Shown here piece by piece: positions 2,075 to 14,598 of a stretch of 21,319 nucleotides of DNA. The translations under genes were made by a program, and so were the position numbers. A model generated the notes under the pieces. The model did no database searches, was not told the origin of the DNA, and saw only the letters and a program-made list of their open reading frames with translations. Each line of letters opens with the position of its first letter. Position 1 is the stretch's first letter. This DNA is from a virus. Location: positions 1 through 21,319 of IMG/VR virus record IMGVR_UViG_3300045538_000133, one strand, 5' to 3'.

Positions 2075-2102
2075 TTGACGGGACGCAAATTTAGTGCATT
2101 AT
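2075..2102 (+). promoter_or_regulatory. Candidate sigma-70-type promoter, reading rightward
   Basis: TTGACG (2075-2080) is followed after 16 bp by CATTAT (2097-2102); these match the -35 and -10 consensus at 5/6 and 4/6. Transcription would start near 2109, at the edge of the structured segment and opposite to the flanking late genes. No plus-strand protein gene follows, which points to an RNA product. Strength and use are inferred. Confidence 0.4.
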
Positions 2103-2108
2103 TTGCGT
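2083..2108. promoter_or_regulatory. Perfect 8+8 palindrome overlapping the promoter
   Basis: ACGCAAAT (2083-2090) and ATTTGCGT (2101-2108) are perfect inverted repeats separated by 10 bases. The arms flank and cover the -10 of the rightward promoter candidate, the classic placement for a dimeric repressor operator. It has no T-tract on either strand, so it is not a terminator. Confidence 0.45.
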
Positions 2109-2565
2109 TGACGACGACGGGGGTCTAAGTCAAAGTTTACCCCGCTAGGCCGTAAAGGTTCTAGCTGCAAGGCCAACACGAGATGCCCCCGTCTTTCGTG
2201 CTTGGCCTTTGCCTTTTACCGCAATAGCCATGATATATTGAAGAAACCGAGGAACGCTCAAACGACCGCACGGAATCTAGGTAAAAGTCTCACAGGGTAC
2301 TACGCTTGAAGCCAGTCGCGGCGTAGCTAAATAGAGTGTGACGACCAATGAGCTTGATGCAGACCTACAGCCTCAACCCTCTGCTATCATTGGTTCCAGC
2401 CCAGCTGGTGTGTAAAAGTCTTATCCGAAGAATATACGGGAGTTCTTTCATAGTTTAGCCGCTTAAGGCGAACTATGCTTAGAACTTTCCTCGAATGCCG
2501 GGAGTTCCTTCGATGTGCTAACGTACGATAATCCACCCATAAAGTGTCCATAATGGATTATTTAA
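2109..2565 (+). ncRNA. Candidate large structured phage RNA
   Basis: About 450 bases without a plausible protein frame hold a dense series of complementary arms. (a) 2169-2181 pairs with 2196-2209, 13 bp with one bulge, enclosed by GTAAAGG 2152-2158 with CCTTTTAC 2212-2219. (b) The loop of (a) carries CCCCCGTC (2186-2193), complementary to GACGGGGG (2116-2123), a possible pseudoknot. (c) 2287-2294 with 2337-2345, and inside it CTACGC/GCGTAG (2300-2305/2321-2326). (d) 2344-2351 with 2387-2394, inner GCAGA/TCTGC. (e) 2438-2446 with 2481-2490, then CATAGTT/AACTATG (2449-2455/2471-2477). (f) TCGAA/TTCGA 2491-2495/2509-2513. (g) ATAATCCA/TGGATTAT 2528-2535/2554-2561. In stem (e) G2440 pairs with U2488 as a wobble on the plus strand but would be a C-A mismatch on the minus strand, which weakly favours plus. 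The 5' end is set by the promoter candidate; the 3' end is a guess. It could instead be a minus-strand leader for the scaffold gene. Large ornate phage RNAs such as GOLLD and ROOL are the natural comparison, but I cannot assign it to either. Confidence 0.45.
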
Positions 2566-4250: not shown

Positions 4251-4396
4251 CACTTTGCCTTCCGCTTGATCTTGCGCTCCTGCTTGAGCATCTCCTTAGT
4301 AGGCTTCTTGCCAGAGCCTTTAGCGGCACGGATGTTGTCCCACATCCCACGCTGGGACATGGAACCATCTTCGCGTTTGATCATTTGCTTCTTCAT
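4250..4396 (-). CDS. 48-residue basic protein directly after portal
   Basis: The frame runs from ATG 4396 to TGA 4250. The protein starts MKKQMIKREDGSMSQRGMWD, then NIRAAKGSGKKPTKEM and LKQERKIKRKAK. It is lysine-rich and mostly helical by composition. The start forms an ATGA overlap with the portal stop and the end forms a TGATG overlap with the next gene, so it is coupled on both sides. The RGMWDNIRAAKGSGKKPT segment resembles short proteins I have seen in other phage genomes, for which no function is known. A 67-residue frame overlaps it in another phase but lacks such couplings. Confidence 0.75.
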   Translation of the reverse strand: MKKQMIKREDGSMSQRGMWDNIRAAKGSGKKPTKEMLKQERKIKRKAK

Positions 4397-6459
4397 TGCT
4401 GCATACCTTGGGTTTGCACTCCACCCATTTCAGCTGGAGCTGTGCCTATGCGGCCAATCTCTGCGTTCTGGGCTTGCTGAAGCATAAATTCATATTGTGA
4501 GGCGTACTTGGAAAGCCTCTCCGCAAATGCCTCGTCCTGTTGTGCGCGTTGTGCAACATCTGGTTGCTGGACATACGCTTGAACCATCTGCATTGCGATC
4601 TGTGCGCCATTCGGTTGAGCAGGAACCTCGATACCAGCGAAAATCTTGGCAAGGTCATCGGTGACATTCTTAGCAACCTTCTGTTGAGCTTCCTCCATCG
4701 GCTGGAGAACATAGTCAGCAAAGATCGGGTTGATGCTGGATGCCGTAAACTCAAGCAACTTATTCACATCGAGGATGCCGTTGCGGTCAAGTTGCACCAA
4801 GGACACCATGTTCTTAAGCTGAGTCTCAGCGGTATCTGGGTCAGTCGCCAACGAGTCGAAGTTAACCGTGATGCTGAAGTTCTCATCGGGATTGCCCTTG
4901 GTCATAACCTGTGGGTTAGGATTGCCAGTTACTTGAAAGAAGATCTCGTCTGGTCCCATGCGTTGGTACAGCTTCCACGCCAAGGTGAGGACATCACGAA
5001 CGTGATCGAGAAACTTGCCCACGTAGAACTGCTGTCTTGCTACCGTAAGCGGGTTTGTAAGGTCTAGTCCCACAGCGCGGTCTGCTTGCGCCCTCATGGA
5101 CATCTCTGCTTCCATAGATCCTTGGTCCATCGGAGGGACAGGACCCCACGCAATTTCACCGAGGCGACGATAAGGAACACGACGACCTGGCCCCCAATCA
5201 GAGGGAGGCCGTCCAGCAGGGTGCATAAGCGGTGGCAAAGTAGCGAGAGAGGCACGATCAATCCGTGAGTCTTTCTCCGTCTTGATTTGCATCTGTGCGC
5301 CTCGGAGTATGTCGCTAAAGGTTTGCACTTCATACATTCGTTTCTGGTCATTTGAAAGGCGTGTAACGATGAACGGGTAGTCATCGTATCCATTAAGAAG
5401 TTCGTGTTTGGCGTAGCCTTCAGCTTGAGGATGAAATACGGTACAATAGATGCCCTCGCTTCCATCCTCCTCGTCAATTAGACGTTGATAGCCATAGACC
5501 ACCATAACAAGGTCATTGTCGTCCGTGATTGGCAGGCGGGTCACAGTCTTGACCTTCTCGCCATCGAGATACATGGAATCCTTGCCACGGAGGTTGCTGA
5601 TAGCAAAGTCAACCCACTTGCGGTCCCAGCCCTCATTAGCTACCTTTTTCTCAAGCTCTTGAGATGTTAGGAAAGTCCTCCAGAAGATATACGGAGAGCG
5701 TTGAGGATCAGAGACATACGGAGGGAATAGAACTTCACCGTCTGGCGAGCATGAGTGAACCAATGGGCAGTCAACAGTCTGACGCGCCAGTGGAATCTCA
5801 GCCATTCCAGTCTTGCGCATGTCCTTGATAGCCTTCTTAGCCCGTTTAACGGACAGGTCTGGGAATGCTTGCTGGATCAACGTCAACAACATCTCGTCAT
5901 CGGCTCCAGTAACAATAAGGTCTGCTAGATCAGGGGATGCTTGAGCGACTTGCTCGACGGATACTTGTTGCAAATATGTCCTTTTTTCTCGCTTCCAGCC
6001 GACATAGGAGATCATAATCCCCTTCTCTAGCAAATAGTTTGCACCCAACTCCATCTGGTTTTTGAAGTCTGGGATGTAAGTAGAACGCATCCACTTAAGG
6101 AATGCTGACACCACAGCTGCCCGTGGCATCGAGGCCATCGAAGTTGGAAATGCTTTAATATGGCTGCGTTGAAGAGCTTGGTCAAACAAAGACACGTACA
6201 TGTCAATCCGCTCACCTACGACATTCACCTCTTGATCGGATGCGCCCTGCCATGGAAAGGCGTTTGCACCGTTCTTACGAAGGTCATCGCTCTTCCCATC
6301 CCAGATATTACGCCGATCATTGTACGAACGAAGGCAGGACTCAAAGTAGTAGTCCAAGTCGATCAAGCAAGTATCATACGCATCGGTCAATGCACCAATG
6401 TCTGGTTCCTTATCCGCATAGATAAGCGACTCATCTTCAAGCTCTTGTTCTGGACTCAT
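4393..6459 (-). CDS. Portal (head-to-tail connector) protein
   Basis: This 688-residue protein has the usual length of podoviral portals, the dodecameric ring at one head vertex through which DNA enters and leaves. The N-terminal region has RNIWDGKSDD and then FPWQGASD (about residues 68-75), a motif I associate with portals of marine and freshwater podoviruses. Next come a long alpha/beta wing region, a central part with DILRGAQMQIKTEKDSRID (clip/stem region), and a glutamine-rich helical C-terminus (QYEFMLQQAQNAE) typical of the crown or barrel. It lies downstream of the terminase large subunit, separated by two small genes. ATG 6459 overlaps the upstream stop (ATGA), and its own stop overlaps the next start. 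No frameshift is seen. Confidence 0.9.
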   Translation of the reverse strand: MSPEQELEDESLIYADKEPDIGALTDAYDTCLIDLDYYFESCLRSYNDRRNIWDGKSDDLRKNGANAFPWQGASDQEVNVVGERIDMYVSLFDQALQRSHIKAFPTSMASMPRAAVVSAFLKWMRSTYIPDFKNQMELGANYLLEKGIMISYVGWKREKRTYLQQVSVEQVAQASPDLADLIVTGADDEMLLTLIQQAFPDLSVKRAKKAIKDMRKTGMAEIPLARQTVDCPLVHSCSPDGEVLFPPYVSDPQRSPYIFWRTFLTSQELEKKVANEGWDRKWVDFAISNLRGKDSMYLDGEKVKTVTRLPITDDNDLVMVVYGYQRLIDEEDGSEGIYCTVFHPQAEGYAKHELLNGYDDYPFIVTRLSNDQKRMYEVQTFSDILRGAQMQIKTEKDSRIDRASLATLPPLMHPAGRPPSDWGPGRRVPYRRLGEIAWGPVPPMDQGSMEAEMSMRAQADRAVGLDLTNPLTVARQQFYVGKFLDHVRDVLTLAWKLYQRMGPDEIFFQVTGNPNPQVMTKGNPDENFSITVNFDSLATDPDTAETQLKNMVSLVQLDRNGILDVNKLLEFTASSINPIFADYVLQPMEEAQQKVAKNVTDDLAKIFAGIEVPAQPNGAQIAMQMVQAYVQQPDVAQRAQQDEAFAERLSKYASQYEFMLQQAQNAEIGRIGTAPAEMGGVQTQGMQQ

Positions 6460-6752
6460 GATACGTATTCGTAATAATCTTCGGGGTCAGCTGATACTAG
6501 GCACAATTTAATGCGCTTGCCAACAAGTTTATTTGATAGCTTAGATGGGCATTTTACTGGAACCGCCACCCCGTCCATGCGGACAATCACCCAAGTAGGG
6601 TTATTGCATACCCGCATTACTAGGTAATCATCGCTCAATTCCTCCTGCTGGTCAATTAGACTAGCTAGGCTACATGGGGCTTCATCCACGATAATCTTGG
6701 ATTTTGGCGGACGGCCTCGTTTTGCTGTTTTCTTATTTGGTGCTTGTTTCAT
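6456..6752 (-). CDS. Small AT-hook protein
   Basis: This is a 98-residue protein. Residues about 8-19 (KTAKRGRPPKSK) contain a textbook AT-hook core, RGRP flanked by lysines, which binds the minor groove of AT-rich DNA. The rest is a small mixed domain with WVIVRMDGVAVPVKCPSK and a C-terminal acidic/aromatic tail, DPEDYYEYVS. Its ATG at 6752 overlaps the end of the upstream gene by 20 bases and its stop overlaps the portal ATG. The position between terminase and portal suggests a DNA-packaging accessory or a transcription factor; this is inferred. No family name is assigned. Confidence 0.8.
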   Translation of the reverse strand: MKQAPNKKTAKRGRPPKSKIIVDEAPCSLASLIDQQEELSDDYLVMRVCNNPTWVIVRMDGVAVPVKCPSKLSNKLVGKRIKLCLVSADPEDYYEYVS

Positions 6753-6921
6753 TAGGGATCTTTGATTTCATGTATCTGATTGCGTGTTCAAGAGTGTCTA
6801 TCTCCTCCGTAAGTTGCTTGGTTTTGCCTAGCTTTTCTGCCTTAACCCTGCGGAAATAGGCTTCTTTTAGGCAGTCTAGAACGAGTTGTTCAGCCCCGAT
6901 TGGTTTGGTATTCGTTTTCAT
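6733..6921 (-). CDS. Small helical protein after terminase
   Basis: The chosen start is ATG 6921, giving 62 residues (MKTNTKPIGAEQLVLDCLKE...). It is preceded by a perfect GGAGG 9 bases upstream, the clearest Shine-Dalgarno in the window, and begins one base after the terminase stop. An in-frame ATG at 6975 would overlap terminase by 53 bases and is not preferred. The protein is predicted as two helices (AYFRRVKAEKLGKTKQLTEE, then IDTLEHAIRYMKSK), possibly a coiled coil. There are no motifs that reveal a function. Confidence 0.75.
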   Translation of the reverse strand: MKTNTKPIGAEQLVLDCLKEAYFRRVKAEKLGKTKQLTEEIDTLEHAIRYMKSKIPNETSTK

Positions 6922-6922
6922 G

Positions 6923-8521
6923 TCAATATCCTCCAGACCCGTGAGTTGTAACAAATGATTGGCTGCTGTCAACATGATCTAAATTGGCAATCGAGGCGTA
7001 CCTCAAAACGTCCACGGGGTCTTTCCAAGCCTCCTTTAGACCTTGTTCGCCCGTGTACTCGGACAAAGCATTGATGATATTCTCGCATTCGCTGCTGACA
7101 TAAAAATGGGGTCGGTTGACCGAATCAAGCGGCTTAGTTGTATCAAATGCCATTTTCCCGATCAAAGCCTGCAACCCATCGTCAATGTCAAGACCCGGCG
7201 CAGGAATGCAAACCATACCAGCCTCGTTCAAATCCTCGATGATTGACGACGAACCGTCCTGCACTTGGTACTTTGCCGCTCCAAGACGAGGGTCGATTAA
7301 ACGCTCAAAGATCTCTTCGTCGCCCTCCATCTGCTGAATAAGGTCAATGTAGTCCCTAATGCCGTATCCTTGGCCTTTCGCCCCCTCACCTGGACACCAC
7401 TTGCCACTACGCCATTCAGCCCAGTCACCGACATCTACGCCTGGCCATTCACGGTATACCCAGAAGGTTCCGCTCTCATCCACCGCGATCCAGCACATGA
7501 ACCAGTTTTTCGCACCAGCTGGGTCGATTACATGATAACGGGTGACATTGTTGGTCGGAATCTTATCTGGCTCGACGACATTGACCACCTTATTGAATTT
7601 GGGGAACTTGGTCGTATGAGACTTCATTGGAACCCCGTAGGCGCGGATTAAAATCTCTTCGCGGGGCTTCCCTAGTAGCGTGTCCTTGATGCGCTCATAG
7701 CCACCAAATGGGTTGTCTTGGCTGTGGAAGTAGTGGACTGAAGCGTTGTGCTTCTTGGATCTCTGGACATAGGGGACAACCTCACCCTTGAGAAGGTCCG
7801 CCTCCCTAGACTCAACGGTCTTGGCCCCATCCAGATACTCTTTAATTACTTCGGTCCAGCCATCAATAGGGGTGAACGTCACCAGCATCTTAGAGTTGCG
7901 AGTAGCAAGACGAAAACGCAGAGTATTAATGAGGTCTGGACCAAGAAGATATTCGTCCAGCCACACGCCGATATTGTGCCACTGCGGGTTCCTAGAACCA
8001 AGCTCTGCACCCTCTAAGATCGTTGGGTTATTCTGATACTGCGAGTAGGTCTTAAAGATGATCTGTGAGCCATTAGGAAGGATTAGCGAGTTATCCGTGA
8101 ATCCGTTCTTCTTGGTGTACGAGATGTACGCATTCTCCGATGTCTGCTTGGAACGCAACTCAGCTGGAAGCCACCCCCATACGGCACTTTGTTGCTGGCG
8201 GATTGACACCTCGGATGTCTGGGCAAAGCAGAATATCTCAGACTTGGGATTCTCTACGGCAGCCTTGACCACGCAGTACGATCCCCATGAAGTTTTCCCG
8301 CTGCGATTGCCGCCTAATGCCAGGATCTCGTTAACCTCTTGAAGCTGTTCTTCAGCCTTCTCCCAGTGAGGAAGCCTAAACCCATAGCGGAATGGATCTT
8401 TGTCAGCATTCTCGATAGCCTCATGGTATATCCGATGTATATCCATCAACTCAGATGGGTCCATCAATGCCACCTCGTCATCGTCTGGAGGCGTTAGGAT
8501 CTGGTGTTTTCTCCAGTTCAT
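6923..8521 (-). CDS. Terminase large subunit (packaging ATPase/nuclease)
   Basis: This is the motor that cuts concatemeric DNA and pumps it into the head through the portal. At 532 residues it has normal length. The ATPase domain has Walker A GGNRSGKT (residues 70-77), Walker B IGVWLDE (184-190, catalytic Glu190) and a coupling motif TFTP (215-218). The C-terminal RNase H-like nuclease has VIDP (Asp333), LIDPRLG (Asp410) and a late acidic pair in DPVDVLRY (Asp501/Asp504). All key residues seem present, so it should be active. The ATG overlaps the upstream zinc-protein stop (ATGA). It sits in the TerS - zinc protein - TerL - portal order. Confidence 0.95.
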   Translation of the reverse strand: MNWRKHQILTPPDDDEVALMDPSELMDIHRIYHEAIENADKDPFRYGFRLPHWEKAEEQLQEVNEILALGGNRSGKTSWGSYCVVKAAVENPKSEIFCFAQTSEVSIRQQQSAVWGWLPAELRSKQTSENAYISYTKKNGFTDNSLILPNGSQIIFKTYSQYQNNPTILEGAELGSRNPQWHNIGVWLDEYLLGPDLINTLRFRLATRNSKMLVTFTPIDGWTEVIKEYLDGAKTVESREADLLKGEVVPYVQRSKKHNASVHYFHSQDNPFGGYERIKDTLLGKPREEILIRAYGVPMKSHTTKFPKFNKVVNVVEPDKIPTNNVTRYHVIDPAGAKNWFMCWIAVDESGTFWVYREWPGVDVGDWAEWRSGKWCPGEGAKGQGYGIRDYIDLIQQMEGDEEIFERLIDPRLGAAKYQVQDGSSSIIEDLNEAGMVCIPAPGLDIDDGLQALIGKMAFDTTKPLDSVNRPHFYVSSECENIINALSEYTGEQGLKEAWKDPVDVLRYASIANLDHVDSSQSFVTTHGSGGY

Positions 8522-8868
8522 TGCTTGTATGCTCCTGTTTCCATTAGGATGTCAATTATCCGATACACGCTACCGCATTCGTCACATCCAAATGTATCAT
8601 CCTCTGGGGGGAGCGACCCACGGTTACCATCCACAAAATAGAGTTTACTGTATTTCTCGCAGTGTCCACAAAGCCCGATGTGAGGTTCAATGTGTTTATT
8701 CAGTACCACATTCCACACCTTGGTGTCGAACTTCTCAGCCAGATACGACGCGTAAGTAAGGGTATTGCAAGCGTACTGGCGACCATCATGATCGACTGCG
8801 TAACGGTACAAGATTGGACCAACGTCCGAAAGGTAATCGACAAACCTTGATTCTGGCTCCTTGATCAT
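8518..8868 (-). CDS. Zinc-ribbon-like protein between terminase genes
   Basis: This is a 116-residue protein. The C-terminal half has two CxxC pairs, CGHC (about residues 67-70) and CDEC (about 94-97), with 23 residues between them, the layout of a zinc ribbon. The N-terminal half (YLSDVGPILYRYAVDHDGRQ and following) is a small alpha/beta region that I cannot place. Both ends are ATGA overlaps, with the small terminase subunit upstream and the large one downstream. This strict coupling suggests a packaging or DNA-binding role, for example a partner of the small subunit. That is inference. It may instead be an unrelated phage gene inserted at this spot. Confidence 0.75.
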   Translation of the reverse strand: MIKEPESRFVDYLSDVGPILYRYAVDHDGRQYACNTLTYASYLAEKFDTKVWNVVLNKHIEPHIGLCGHCEKYSKLYFVDGNRGSLPPEDDTFGCDECGSVYRIIDILMETGAYKQ

Positions 8869-9446
8869 GCGACTATCTCAGCTTCAACTGCGCTTTCCTT
8901 GACCTTGTTTGCGATGCGAGCTTTAGCGTCAGCAATCATCTTGGCCGCGTCATCAAGGCTTGGACCTTTTCGATGCTCGACGACCGTGGTAGCCATGCCC
9001 GTAAGCTGTGCTGCCTTATCCGTAAGAATACCCACCGTTACGGCCAGCTTATCTGGGCTAATCTTCGCTAGCTCATCGGGGTTGTCAAACAGTTGTTGGG
9101 AACGCTCAAACAGCAAGTCGGTGTACTCCTGCGCAGCAATAGCATACCGCATCGAGAACTCTTTGCGCTTCGTCTCTAGGGTATCGCTATGCCTCCATTC
9201 AAGCCCACGGATGATCTCACGCGAGAGTCCAGTCTTGTTTTTTATGTCCGATAGCCTAGCCCCCTGCGCAGACAGCCACAACGCCAAAGCCGCCTTGTTC
9301 GGGGCGTAATGCTCTACTGTATTGCCATGCTGGTGCTTGGCCCGTTCCTTTACTTCAAGGAACCAAGCTGCCTTGTCAGCTCGCTCGTCAACATAGTCAC
9401 GCTTTAGCTTTTCGTTTGGATCGTCGCTCATTGGTTCAGAGGTCAC
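8865..9446 (-). CDS. Probable terminase small subunit
   Basis: This is the likely DNA-recognition subunit of the packaging motor. The protein is 193 residues from the GTG at 9446; an ATG at 9431 (MSDDPNEKLK) gives 188 and is a reasonable alternative. Residues about 47-80 (NKAALALWLSAQGARLSDI, then KTGLSREIIRGLEWRHSD) read as a helix-turn-helix, expected for binding the packaging site. The centre is helical (AQEYTDLLFERSQQLFDNPD), as in oligomerising domains, and the C-terminal tail is a long charged helix. The call rests on size, helix-turn-helix and the position upstream of the large subunit; sequence similarity is weak, as is common. The leader has an AAGAAG weak Shine-Dalgarno before the GTG. 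Confidence 0.75.
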   Translation of the reverse strand: MTSEPMSDDPNEKLKRDYVDERADKAAWFLEVKERAKHQHGNTVEHYAPNKAALALWLSAQGARLSDIKNKTGLSREIIRGLEWRHSDTLETKRKEFSMRYAIAAQEYTDLLFERSQQLFDNPDELAKISPDKLAVTVGILTDKAAQLTGMATTVVEHRKGPSLDDAAKMIADAKARIANKVKESAVEAEIVA

Positions 9447-9493
9447 TAGGACTTCTTAACCTTTAATAAGGAGTCGCGCAAGGCTTTTTTAGA

Positions 9494-12454
9494 TCACTTC
9501 TGAATCATCCCGCTCTTAATGGCTTCATCAATAATATTCTGACTCTCTGCGGCGAACTCTGGATCATTCCTACCTTGGTTGGCGAGTGATTCCAATCCGC
9601 GCCTAGTTCCAACAAGGCCAACGATAGCCTTTTTCATATTTGAGTTCAATTGTTCAGGAGTAACGTTTTTCTGATACAACCTAAGCAATGGAAGAAGCGA
9701 GTCGCTATCATGCATTGATGCAAATATCCTGCTTGAAACCCAGCCTGGCCTAGACACCACCCATGGAGTAATCCCAGACCTACTTGCTAATATTTTGGCA
9801 TTAACCTCGCTGACTTCTTTTTCAGTAACTTTATTAGCAGCAATATGATTTGCCGCAGCCTTAAACCGTCCAAGGAACTCTTCTCCCATTACATTCCTAA
9901 TGCGAGTGCCAAGTGTGCGATCTTTAGAAAAATCACGCAAAAACTTAGATCCGTCAAAAAGCTCAATCCCATTTGATGTAAAATCACCACTTGAGCTGTA
10001 TCTCGATAACAGTTCAGCAACAAAATCAGACTGAAGGGCTTTCCTTTCAGACTTTGGCATTCTTGTTAGGAATGAGTTAATGTCAGAAAGCGGTGCTCTA
10101 AACATTGTCTTGGAGAACTCTGATACATCCAGTTTTCCCCAATCTCCTTTTTTTGCAGCCGAAATGAGCGTATTATCAAGCATTTTATCGGCATCAGACT
10201 TATACTGCGCCTTCTCTACTATCTTTTTAATTACTGACCTTCTTGAGTCCTCACTGAGTGCGGAGTACAGTTCAGAAATGTCTCTTGAATCAACGTTTGA
10301 TACATTTATCTTTTTATCTGCTAATGCCGAGTTAAGTGCATTTAGCTTATCAACCATCAATCTTCCATAGTTCTCGTTAACTCTCCCAGCAGGGCTAATT
10401 CCAAAAAGCTCAGTGACAATTTCTGGATCAAAATCAATCGTTGTGGATGGTGCTCCGCGATCAGCCGTCAATCCAATCTTGTTTAAATAGGCTTTCTGTA
10501 GCTGACCCCTCATATACGGGGAGCGTTCTGGAGCACCAAGTTCGACGGCACGAATAACATCACGGATGTTTTTAGGATCTTGGATTGCTCTGTTTACAGC
10601 TCCAGTAGGAGTCATCGCTTGATCCCCAAGAACCTCCTTTAAAATAGAACCTGGAGCATTACGCTCAAACAAAAGCACATCATTAACGTACTGTGAGTTG
10701 ATTGCTTCAAATTTATCTTTTAGCCCAGCCGAGTCAAGAAGGCCATTTCTAAATCTTCTTAAACTGTCTGATGCTACAGATGCAACCTGTTGCTGAGTCT
10801 TTCCACCTATCGCTCCAGCATCTGGCACAGCATCTTGGATCACTTGGACATATTCATTTATTTCTTTGATTCCAAGTGGAGCCGAGTTCAACTCCATTTT
10901 TTTAATCTGCTCTAACAATTCCGGTGTTGATTCGATCTTGCCCGATGCAATACCAGCTTTAAGTCGAGATGCAGCGACACCATCTTCCGTTCTTTTATTG
11001 AGATCAGAAATAATAGAGTTTACAGCAGGATTTTTTTTAACCTTAAATGTTGATATTGCGCCAGTAAGAACATCAGCTATTTCCTCTGGTGCTGATTGTA
11101 TTCCAGAGGAATCAGCTTCATCCCAAAATTCGTTAAACGCCTTATTTTTTATGTCGTTTACCGTTTGTTTGCCTTGCTCCAAATACCCAAGTAACTCTTC
11201 ACCAATAGGTTCAGATTTAAATGTTGGATTTTGCAGCTCATCAAGTTTTCTGTTGATGTTTGAGTCAATAACTTGGCGAACCTTCTTGTCTTTAATGTCC
11301 GCGCTTGAAATAAGATTGTCGTATTGACTCCTTAATCTACCAAGCGTTTGAGTGAATGCTTTCTCTGATGTCGGTTTCCCACTTATCAGCGTTTCTTGAA
11401 AGTTTTGAAGCTGTTCTATATTTTTGAACCTCTTTGTTTGAGTCGTAGGGAAACGAGCGGCGAGTTCTTTTTGCCTCTCAAGCCCAAGAACTCCACCACC
11501 GGCTCCAGCTGGAGTTTCGACTGAGAAACCAGCTCTAGCAAGAATAGCAGCATCTTCTTCAAGTGATTTGGCTATTTCATTCGTAACGCCTTTGCCAATG
11601 CGTCTTGCCGCGATTTTGCCGAGTCCCATGGTTGCTACATCCATCCCCATCCCAAGTGCTGTTTCAACACCACGGCGACGAAGGATTTCACCAGGCTTCA
11701 CCTTAACTCCAAGCATCTCTCTAGCAAGAGCATCCTGCAATGATGACACACCAAGATATGCTCCGCCACTTGCTCCTACTGCTCCTACAGTTGACGGGGA
11801 GGCAACTATTGCAGCTCCTGCAGCGGCCATGGTTGGGGCAACTTCACCACTAAGGTCAAGAATATCTTTCATCCCAACTCCGACTTCGTCAGCTAAAACA
11901 ACGCTCCCGTCCTTGCGCTTTACAACATTGGCTTGATTCCCAGCGATATTAACACTAAAAACGCTATTATCTCCATATTTCTGCTTGAGATATGTCAGTT
12001 TATCTTCTGGCGTTGGCAAAAAACCCATCTCCACGCGATCCCTTGCTGGGAGGCCGGACTGAATATCCACTTTGTCTGGAGACGTTTGGAACAAGTTCCC
12101 AATAAGATTCGGTAATTGTCCTTCAAATTGGGCTACTTCTTTAGTTGCCGACTCCATAGTCGGAACATTTGGGAAAGCCGACTTAAACTCTCCACCAAGC
12201 TCGGTTGTTGGTGCGCCAATCGGAGTTCCAGTTGCGAGTGCCTCTTGAGCTTGTCTTTGCTCAAGTTGCATTTTAGCTCGTTTTTCTGGATCAGCCATTT
12301 TTAACTCGCCACCAAGAACTTTGATCTGACGTGTATACTCATCAGCAAGTTGCTCGTCACCAGATGACATCGCATTAAGCCTCATGTCGTTTAGTTTCAC
12401 GATTCCCCTTTCAATTCTAGATGGGGTCATAGTTGATGTGATTGCGTCAGCCAT
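9494..12454 (-). CDS. Large internal virion / DNA-ejection protein
   Basis: This 986-residue protein is the largest in the window. The N-terminus is charged and helical. Residues about 205-237 form an Ala/Gly/Val hydrophobic stretch (PTMAAAGAAIVASPSTVGAV and onward) followed by an amphipathic Gly-rich part (GVETALGMGMDVATMGLGKI), the sort of segment ejection proteins use to cross membranes. The rest is long helices rich in Lys, Glu, Asn and Ser. No lysozyme or peptidase motif is visible. It follows the peptidase-bearing protein by 5 bases and has GGAGAG 8 bases before ATG. By analogy with T7 gp15/gp16-type proteins it is probably packed inside the head and injected with the DNA; the assignment is by size, composition and order, not by detected homology. 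Confidence 0.7.
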   Translation of the reverse strand: MADAITSTMTPSRIERGIVKLNDMRLNAMSSGDEQLADEYTRQIKVLGGELKMADPEKRAKMQLEQRQAQEALATGTPIGAPTTELGGEFKSAFPNVPTMESATKEVAQFEGQLPNLIGNLFQTSPDKVDIQSGLPARDRVEMGFLPTPEDKLTYLKQKYGDNSVFSVNIAGNQANVVKRKDGSVVLADEVGVGMKDILDLSGEVAPTMAAAGAAIVASPSTVGAVGASGGAYLGVSSLQDALAREMLGVKVKPGEILRRRGVETALGMGMDVATMGLGKIAARRIGKGVTNEIAKSLEEDAAILARAGFSVETPAGAGGGVLGLERQKELAARFPTTQTKRFKNIEQLQNFQETLISGKPTSEKAFTQTLGRLRSQYDNLISSADIKDKKVRQVIDSNINRKLDELQNPTFKSEPIGEELLGYLEQGKQTVNDIKNKAFNEFWDEADSSGIQSAPEEIADVLTGAISTFKVKKNPAVNSIISDLNKRTEDGVAASRLKAGIASGKIESTPELLEQIKKMELNSAPLGIKEINEYVQVIQDAVPDAGAIGGKTQQQVASVASDSLRRFRNGLLDSAGLKDKFEAINSQYVNDVLLFERNAPGSILKEVLGDQAMTPTGAVNRAIQDPKNIRDVIRAVELGAPERSPYMRGQLQKAYLNKIGLTADRGAPSTTIDFDPEIVTELFGISPAGRVNENYGRLMVDKLNALNSALADKKINVSNVDSRDISELYSALSEDSRRSVIKKIVEKAQYKSDADKMLDNTLISAAKKGDWGKLDVSEFSKTMFRAPLSDINSFLTRMPKSERKALQSDFVAELLSRYSSSGDFTSNGIELFDGSKFLRDFSKDRTLGTRIRNVMGEEFLGRFKAAANHIAANKVTEKEVSEVNAKILASRSGITPWVVSRPGWVSSRIFASMHDSDSLLPLLRLYQKNVTPEQLNSNMKKAIVGLVGTRRGLESLANQGRNDPEFAAESQNIIDEAIKSGMIQK

Positions 12455-12459
12455 TTAAT

Positions 12460-14598
12460 TTACTCTCCAAGTTCTCTAAGGATTCGATCTGCTTCTGATT
12501 CTTGAGTTTGAGGCGCAACACCTTCCATTTGGCGTGGAACTGTTTCGCCAGTAGCACTCATTGTAAATGCTGGATATGAAGATTCAATATCAAAGTATTG
12601 TTCTTTTGTTATTTTACCTTCTTGAAGGAGATTTCTGCGTTGCTCTGAAGTACCATGAATAACATCAAGATATTTTCCTTGAAGTCGCATTAAGTTCTCT
12701 CTAAGGGTCTGTGGATCAGTCTTGTCAATATCAAGTTGGCCCGCGCTTTGCTGAAGCATATCTGTTTCAAACTTTGCAACGTTACCCAATGCCCCACCAG
12801 TTGGTGAGGCCATCCTCATTTTGTTGAGTTCATTGAAAGCAAGCATTGACTTAATTGGTGCAATGAAATTATTTGCAAGTTGGTATTCTGGAGTTCCTTT
12901 TGCAAACTTTGCTGCACCAGCTCTATAAAATGAAGCAAGTGGGCCAGATCCCTGCATAACACCAGAATCTAAGACTTTTAGGGCGCGTCCAATTTCTTGG
13001 GTTCCCATTGTAGCCCTCTCTACACCTTGTTCTTTTGCGGCTTGAGCTGCTTGTTCTTGACGGCCTCCAACACCAGATCCTTGAACAACTCTAAAACCAC
13101 CTCCGGGAATTTGCTCAATCACCATTCCAGATGGGGGTCTAATTGGGCGCACCTCTCCAGTTTCAACGTTAACCTGACCTTGCGACCCATATTGAGTCAC
13201 CTCTTCCGGCGTAAACTGCCTAAATTTCGTCCCTCCACCAGCAGGAATGCCCCTAACCATCCTTCTTTGGGGCTGTGGCAATTGTGGTTGTTGCGCGGCC
13301 ATAGATGGCTCGGTAGGCATCGCACCTTGAGGGATATTTTGAGCTGTAGCCATACCAGCACCTTGTTCGATTTGCTGAGACAACATCGTTTGTTGCTCTG
13401 GCGTACCCATTGCTTGCTGTGACATATCACCACCCATTGCTAGCGCATTGTCGATTCCTTGGGCTTTAACGTAACGATAGGCGGCTGTTTCGCTTGGGTT
13501 TCTTGGCGCGACACTTTTTCTCCATGAGTCAATTGTGTAATTCTGAACAAATGTTCCAGGAGCCTTCCCAGCAAATCCCTTGCTGCTATTAGAGGCAATG
13601 GCCCCACCATCAAGTACGATGCCAGTATGACCAGCCTTGCTCCCTTTTCTTGGAGTTAAAACAATATCTCCTTTTTGCGCTTCTGTTAGCGGGACCTTAA
13701 CAAATCTTGGGTCATTTTCTAAAGTCGTTGCCATTTCTCTGGTTGAAAGAGTCCCACCTGGAACCAGTTCTTCTCCAGTTGCCATTTCAAATGTTCTGCA
13801 AATTGCATCGGCGCAACCAACATTGCCGCCCTGTGTTCCAGGTGTTTTTGCCGTGCTAAGTTTGCCAATGTTCATTTTTGCAGCATTAGCAATTAAATTA
13901 GAAGCGTCGCCACTAACTTGAGATGTAGCAGGCAACTCTCCAAGCCCGCCCTCTTCTCCATAAAAGAATTTCTCTGTATTGAGAATTGGCCTCTTGGTAT
14001 CACGTTCATAATACTGACCTTGCTTATCAAGCAGCACTTTTTCTTTCCGTTCTTTTCCAATTTCTGGGTCAAAAATTGATATTTCGGTTTCTTTTAATTC
14101 ACTAGCACCTTGCATTGCGCCATATTCAGCAGCTGCAACTTGCCTTTCTCGGAGTCCAAGACCAGCCATTTTATATTGCTGTTCAATCATTGCGCGTTGC
14201 TGCGCTGATTGACGTTCTTGTGCGCTAATTCCAAGAGTAAGAGCATTAGATATTGCTTGAGATGCCGACCGACCAAGCTCTAATGACTGTATTGGTGTGG
14301 TGTTTGGATCATTACGAACATCTTGAATTGGTTGCAAAATAGATCTAATATCAATGCCAAGACTATCACCAAGTTTACTTGCGGTCTCAATACTTGCTGA
14401 ATCCGCTTTAACTTGTGCATCAATCTTTTTGCGTTGCTCCTTGGCTTCTCCATATCCCTCTATGCCCTTAGCAATAGACTGACCAAGGTTAGAAATACCT
14501 TGAGCATAGTTCTCGCCAATCTTGTAAGCTCCAGAAAAGTCGTAGCTAAACAACCTAGGATCAACGCCAGCACCCAACATATTTCGTCCGCCAATCAT
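12460..14598 (-). CDS. Internal virion protein with NlpC/P60- or CHAP-like peptidase domain
   Basis: This is a 712-residue virion protein. Residues 1-190 are helical. Residues about 245-377 look like a papain-fold cell-wall peptidase: GCADAICRTF has the candidate nucleophile Cys262, QKGDIVLTPRKG the usual GD strand (310-311), and AGHTGIV the candidate His324, with a polar Asn337 nearby. Residues 385-450 are low-complexity Gln/Met/Pro, a likely flexible linker. The C-terminal third is helical. It would open peptidoglycan during DNA entry, like the transglycosylase domains of other internal proteins. The start at 14598 follows the upstream stop by one base; a Met at residue 7 is also possible. 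The exact peptidase family and activity are inferred from motif spacing. Confidence 0.75.
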   Translation of the reverse strand: MIGGRNMLGAGVDPRLFSYDFSGAYKIGENYAQGISNLGQSIAKGIEGYGEAKEQRKKIDAQVKADSASIETASKLGDSLGIDIRSILQPIQDVRNDPNTTPIQSLELGRSASQAISNALTLGISAQERQSAQQRAMIEQQYKMAGLGLRERQVAAAEYGAMQGASELKETEISIFDPEIGKERKEKVLLDKQGQYYERDTKRPILNTEKFFYGEEGGLGELPATSQVSGDASNLIANAAKMNIGKLSTAKTPGTQGGNVGCADAICRTFEMATGEELVPGGTLSTREMATTLENDPRFVKVPLTEAQKGDIVLTPRKGSKAGHTGIVLDGGAIASNSSKGFAGKAPGTFVQNYTIDSWRKSVAPRNPSETAAYRYVKAQGIDNALAMGGDMSQQAMGTPEQQTMLSQQIEQGAGMATAQNIPQGAMPTEPSMAAQQPQLPQPQRRMVRGIPAGGGTKFRQFTPEEVTQYGSQGQVNVETGEVRPIRPPSGMVIEQIPGGGFRVVQGSGVGGRQEQAAQAAKEQGVERATMGTQEIGRALKVLDSGVMQGSGPLASFYRAGAAKFAKGTPEYQLANNFIAPIKSMLAFNELNKMRMASPTGGALGNVAKFETDMLQQSAGQLDIDKTDPQTLRENLMRLQGKYLDVIHGTSEQRRNLLQEGKITKEQYFDIESSYPAFTMSATGETVPRQMEGVAPQTQESEADRILRELGE

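Follow-up and report, generated by a model that had tools for sequence, protein, structure and literature searches.

What occupies a long gene-free stretch inside an otherwise tightly packed viral late operon is the question raised by this locus. The window analysed here, the whole 21,319 bases of the uncultured virus record IMGVR_UViG_3300045538_000133, carries late genes that are all read on the minus strand (Table 1). An initial annotation, made from the letters alone, had proposed that a gap beside the scaffold gene holds at least six hairpins and a rightward promoter at its left edge, and that it might encode a large structured RNA, either a relative of GOLLD and ROOL or a new class. Examination of the locus shows that the gap is real, spanning 1949-2807 (859 bp) when the conserved scaffold start at 1948 is used, and that the hairpins listed in that annotation are present. 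No plus-strand ORF longer than 50 aa was found within the slot, and no tRNA genes were found in the window. The label of portal for the gene at 4393-6459 rests on size and position only, as PHROGs yielded no match. The 57-aa late-strand protein at the slot edge is rich in proline and glycine, with MMPPPRPPKGG repeats.

Table 1. Coordinates of the features of the locus, given in window positions unless a locus is named.
Feature	Position	Strand	Basis or remark
Terminase large subunit	8521-6923	-	late operon
Portal-size protein	6459-4393	-	late operon
Small ORFs between portal-size protein and scaffold-like gene			late operon
Small proline-rich ORF, 57 aa	2808-2981	-	other slot border
Sigma-70-type promoter, TTGACG-16-CATTAT	2075-2102	+	consensus scan
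Type A structured RNA	2108 to at least 2500	+	about 35 homologues, covariation, G-U strand asymmetry
Hairpin H1, stem TTGAC/GTCAA (2108-2112/2129-2133)	2108-2133	+	alignments, kissing test
Putative kissing strand GACGGGGG in H1 loop	2116-2123	+	
Small hairpin H3, GCTAG/CTAGC	2144-2165	+	compensatory changes, columns 48-55/62-69
Hairpin H2, AAGGCCAA/TTGGCCTT and CACG/CGTG, long and G+C-rich	2169-2217	+	compensatory stem changes
H2 loop CCCCCGTC	2186-2193	+	complementary to H1 loop
Helix P4, CTTTTACC (2213-2220) with GGTAAAAG (2280-2287)	2213-2287	+	links 5' module to body
Slowly evolving 3' body	2232-2500	+	identity to L003, L090, L005 and L085
Inner stem 2242-2249/2271-2278 closing core loop AGGAACGCTCAAACGACCGCA (2250-2270)	2242-2278	+	covariation counts, helix 1
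Helix P5, CTACGC/GCGTAG	2300-2326	+	75% of cells paired; one subgroup shifts register
Helix P6, ACCAATGA/TCATTGGT (2344-2351/2387-2394), inner stem 2359-2363/2380-2384	2344-2394	+	covariation counts, helices 3-4
Hairpin P7, CCAGC/GCTGG	2396-2408	+	covariation counts, helix 5
Hairpin P9, CATAGTT/AACTATG	2449-2477	+	full-length consensus alignment, columns 363-369/388-394
Scaffold-like gene, 347 aa	905-1948	-	start and length conserved in relatives; divergent neighbour of the RNA
Major head protein	from 885 leftward	-	
Type B RNA	L007:11998-12282	-	about 14 more contigs: L004, L064, L067, L073, L076, L079, L092-L105

An IMG/VR search with the portal protein recovered 80 related loci, in most of which the slot, lying between a 72-aa ORF and the scaffold gene, is empty and measures 190-300 nt; about 25 related loci have an enlarged slot of 0.6-2.2 kb. 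Many of the inserts contain a protein gene antisense to the late operon, encoding HNH-like, sigma-70 region 4-like, thymidylate synthase X or other proteins. The slot is thus a cargo site. Between slot and scaffold start, CGCCATTTACGCTCGGCGGTGCG (1962-1984) is identical in 51 retrieved loci, whether or not the slot contains an RNA, and is likely a late-gene control element of the minus strand. Just 3' of the RNA, several ACGCCAGT-like repeats of 10-11 nt occur at 2574-2644 and are partly absent in L003.

Homologues of the element in the window, termed type A, number about 35 and come from IMG/VR phages and two Akkermansiaceae genomes. A 25-nt conserved stretch used as IMG/VR query returned 10 stretches and a looser 18-base pattern returned 30, with the full body of ~270 nt present in all 30 pattern matches except copies cut by a contig end. 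Most copies occupy the same slot in the same phage group as the window; five (L109, L116, L117, L123 and L124) come from another phage group, in which they are flanked by Erf-like and metallophosphoesterase genes and run antisense to these neighbours, and the copy in L125 lies near a DnaB-like helicase. One of three matches to genome contigs is real, namely L128 from an Akkermansiaceae MAG, an integrated element that encodes an integrase and has two small-terminase genes; a second genome of the Akkermansiaceae family has a diverged type A copy beside a phage integrase. Matches in L126 (Methylosinus) and L127 (a Planctomycetia MAG) covered only the 20-nt bait and were dismissed as chance. No further type A copies were found among the 388 Verrucomicrobiota genomes sampled, and a BLAST search with the gap gave no match among annotated phages and plasmids. 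Portal relatives were absent from 260 Akkermansiaceae-family genomes, and the host of the window phage is therefore not shown.

Several of these loci have features of their own. L132 (contig 234 of G001, 6749-12689), also from an Akkermansiaceae MAG, is an integrated element in which a type A RNA accompanies an integrase gene and two small-terminase genes; it may be a phage satellite instead of a prophage. A diverged member with a replaced core motif scores 52 bits at L131:9423-9591 and adjoins a phage integrase and a transposase. In L128 a sub-threshold tmRNA-like fragment (5804-5947; 17.1 bits), possibly an attachment-site remnant, lies beside a near-threshold Acido-Lenti-1 RNA (36.4 vs 37); neither match was accepted as the identity of the type A RNA, as both lie elsewhere in the locus and fall below the gathering score.

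Type A is present or absent among near-identical phages, with at most one match per record, and contigs of ~40 kb with an empty or a type B slot (see below) lack it altogether. The RNA is thus accessory, with close relatives that do without it; having its own promoter and being variably present at a single site among close relatives, it satisfies the criteria for a moron-type element.

Folding energy, which the initial annotation had offered as a possible refutation, is mildly better than in dinucleotide shuffles, yet weakly so and not in a strand-specific manner (z of -2.35 on the plus and -2.10 on the minus strand, 2 of 100 shuffles being equally good on each); alone it would leave the case for a structured RNA weak, and it is the comparative evidence that settles the matter. 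A covariation test was made on 23 aligned sequences across 2235-2411, using a hand-drawn structure of 31 pairs. Standard pairs amount to 87.6%, as against 70.3% in shuffled alignments, double-change cells to 115 vs 31 and the covariation score to 0.48 vs 0.15, and sliding the partners by 1-3 columns reduces pairing to 29-40%; the counts are inflated by the relatedness of the sequences. P6 is paired in 100% of cells, with double changes at six of its eight pairs. P4 has an own complementarity of 16 vs 10-11 across groups, and in diverged members both of its sides change in step, to TTTTTAAC/GTTAAAAA and TTTCCAGC/GTTGGAAA. The invariance of the core motif is partly by construction, as it served as search bait; L063 and L130 are without it. 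Furthermore, a covariance model built from the body alignment recovers sequences outside its training set (L128 with 86.9 bits, L125 with 66.4 and L002 with 137.5), including L063 despite its lack of the bait motif (41.5 bits). Hence the alignment of homologous gaps that had been proposed as a check bore out the structure, with compensatory changes far above both shuffled and slid controls and with held-out members recovered. No reverse-complement target of the core loop was detected elsewhere in the window.

In the well-aligned helices 17 cells are G-U and none is A-C, from which it follows that the RNA strand is the plus strand. Consistent with the proposed rightward promoter, which is conserved in relatives, TTGAC and TANNNT elements spaced 15-18 nt apart precede H1 in 37 type A and type B loci, the diverged lineage 2 included, and their matches average 8.7 of 12 as against 7.4 in shuffles. 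The 5' end at ~2108 is inferred from this promoter and the 3' end remains undetermined. Of the span 2109-2565 originally suggested for the RNA, the beginning stands; its right-hand part does not, since the conserved body stops at about 2500 and 2510-2565 is conserved in the nearest relatives only. Together these comparisons show, on the strength of alignment, that the gap holds a structured non-coding RNA gene of ~400 nt on the plus strand, with its own sigma-70-type promoter, in an accessory slot that separates scaffold and portal-side genes and antisense to the late operon. A late element of the minus strand, such as a structured leader or antisense region of the scaffold and capsid transcript, might be considered in its place, given that the late genes are on that strand, that it folds nearly as well (z of -2.10) and that a promoter-like minus-strand match at 2688-2659 would read through the region. 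We find this scarcely credible in view of the G-U asymmetry, the conservation of a promoter only on the plus-strand side, the plus-strand position of the accessory ORFs behind the RNA, the expression of the scaffold without the RNA in most relatives and the location of diverged copies away from scaffold genes.

Comparison of the plus-strand RNA across relatives further reveals two parts that evolve at different rates. The body is 96% identical to that of the window in L003 and L090, 86% in L005 and 91% in L085, whereas the 5' module of the same four is only about 46-56% identical; in L085 even the flanking genes, at merely 53-62%, fall below the body. L114 departs from this pattern, with 75% for the module and 79% for the body. 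In 15 other contigs the slot holds type B, in which a 5' module of the same kind precedes a different and unrelated conserved body of ~290 nt. The consensus structure of this body shows compensatory changes at 22 pairs; the type A covariance model does not recover it, and it has no Rfam match. The type A locus L003 and the type B locus L004 have nearly the same 5' module before unrelated bodies; given this sharing and the difference in rates, module and body appear to recombine as units.

The 5' module contains H1, H3 and H2. In 40 of 41 RNAs the loops of H1 and H2 are complementary along 7-12 bp, by means of 27 different sequences. The complementarity score averages 23.2 for loops of the same RNA, 13.2 when H1 of one RNA is combined with H2 of another and 12.8 when the loops are shuffled. 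A simple hairpin finder misplaced H2 in L091, L094 and some type B rows, whose actual loops are complementary by eye. A kissing contact between H1 and H2 within one molecule may be predicted from this covariation. Because the loop pair changes fast and nevertheless always remains self-complementary, it suggests that the 5' module confers specificity or identity and is swapped independently of an effector body. The same complementary, hypervariable loop pairs, found in all types, would also be expected of a homo-oligomeric scaffold akin to GOLLD, ROOL or the phi29 pRNA, in which H1 and H2 pair between molecules and diversify against mixing with RNAs of co-infecting phages; indeed, cryo-EM has shown GOLLD and ROOL to be multimers held by kissing loops (PMC12286853). 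However, an intramolecular contact fits the complementarity just as well and there are no assembly data, and we consider the oligomer improbable, noting that it is a sub-case of the trans-acting RNA favoured below and is not excluded by it. More speculative in scope, and in our estimate also improbable, is an RNA identity system in which the hypervariable loop pair reassorts between bodies A and B such that the RNA of each phage recognizes only itself; if true, it could exclude or ignore co-infecting relatives.

Of the 41 RNAs, 40 have a T-rich tail after H2 (6 or more T within 10 bases), resembling an intrinsic terminator, and the 3' strand of H2 may pair alternatively with a downstream strand, with a score (12.5 vs 11.6 for cross-pairings and 10.3 for shuffles) that is weakly above the controls; in type B compensatory pairs support this alternative pairing. 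These properties, along with the ORF that always follows type B within 20-60 nt, fit a cis-acting leader, where H2 would be a terminator and H1 or the body would decide on read-through into an accessory gene by attenuation or antitermination. This is the main rival to a trans-acting RNA, although we regard it as unlikely. The genes that follow on the plus strand are unrelated among type A members: four have a sigma-like helix-turn-helix protein, L086 a PAPS reductase, L109 a DNA methylase and further members other proteins. In L063 the slot holds, besides a diverged type A RNA, a thymidylate synthase X gene (4355-5044, minus strand) as cargo. The ORF behind type B likewise varies in family, and in L004 and L007 an HNH-like protein follows the RNA. 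The window and about half of the type A copies have no gene to control, yet the body is still 96% conserved, and its position is 3' to the terminator, where a switch acting during transcription has no need of it. Since the downstream genes differ or are missing, it is the RNA that constitutes the conserved unit. For the same reason of an inconstant protein partner, absent in the window, we find it very improbable that the RNA is one half of a two-component system, such as a retron, an OMEGA/HEARO RNA, a type III toxin-antitoxin system or an abortive-infection RNA, even though a structured RNA sits in a moron slot and an HNH-like protein follows it in two loci; there is also no Rfam match to HEARO, and PADLOC matches are marginal. 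Nor was a role in defence upheld for the cargo proteins, as PADLOC gave only a few marginal coiled-coil or HTH matches.

In light of the above, we propose that the locus encodes probably a new class of phage structured RNA that is carried in the manner of a moron and is probably trans-acting, its function being unproven. In architecture it consists of the 5' module (H1, H3 and the terminator-like H2, with complementary H1 and H2 loops), the P4 junction and the 3' body (P5-P9). In the absence of transcript evidence, we infer that host RNA polymerase would transcribe it from the time of infection and without dependence on the late genes. H2 might act as a partial intrinsic terminator, giving a short form of ~110 nt besides the full-length form, and the latter may be stable and act in trans by itself, as an oligomer or in complex with a host component; both inferences are drawn from sequence only, and the U-rich tail could be retained for helix P4 and not for termination. 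The RNA would thereby confer a conditional advantage on the phage, as morons do. Taken as a whole, the reading of a modular plus-strand RNA, transcribed by the host polymerase, partially terminated at H2 and acting in trans, seems to us somewhat better placed to be right than wrong.

Few large structured RNAs are known from phages, and what they do is unknown. The present RNA adds a class absent from Rfam 15, in which bodies A and B stand behind one common 5' module in uncultured bacterial viruses. A near-frozen body beside a fast-changing front module with complementary loops has not been noted for other such RNAs in the open-licence papers searched, and an earlier description elsewhere is possible. 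With loop variants and body swaps occurring in nature, it can be tested directly whether the loops pair within or between molecules, and also whether RNA morons target the host or rival phages.

As to known families, a scan with the Rfam 15 models, GOLLD and ROOL included, gave no match at the gathering score in the window and 12 related loci, and nothing relevant in the gap at E-values up to 10. The original proposal is thus upheld as regards a structured RNA and a new class, and not as regards membership in GOLLD or ROOL. Its nearest kind is that of the large ornate phage RNAs such as GOLLD and ROOL, with which it shares extensive covarying structure, predicted loop-loop contacts, the lack of a protein partner and carriage by phages. 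Like GOLLD, it is a large structured RNA of unknown function with predicted kissing-loop contacts, and in GOLLD too the 3' region is conserved and the 5' region variable (PMC12286853). In contrast, GOLLD exceeds 800 nt as against about 400 here, and it has a tRNA nearby; by this GOLLD criterion none was found in the window or in eight of nine related loci. The antisense orientation to the late operon is a further difference. With ROOL it shares occurrence in phages and prophages, loop-loop contacts and the lack of a protein partner, but it is shorter, has different helices and lacks a tRNA island and an Rfam match. The phi29-type pRNA is also a phage RNA with complementary loops, though of only about 120-174 nt; Rfam gives no pRNA match, and the new RNA (2108-2500) lies away from the packaging gene, the terminase at 6923-8521. 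Its absence from most close relatives indicates that it is not needed for packaging. HEARO and OMEGA RNAs have neither an Rfam match nor an IscB/IsrB-type ORF in the slot, and for a retron the slot lacks an adjacent reverse transcriptase and the homologues share no constant neighbour. Leaders of type III toxin-antitoxin systems (ToxIN) and attenuators resemble it in combining a promoter, a structured RNA, a terminator-like hairpin and an optional gene, but the new RNA has no toxin gene or repeat array and has a large conserved body 3' of the terminator-like hairpin. Finally, phage morons share with it an own promoter, the opposite orientation, variable presence and variable cargo in one slot, differing in that the conserved cargo here is an RNA and not a protein.
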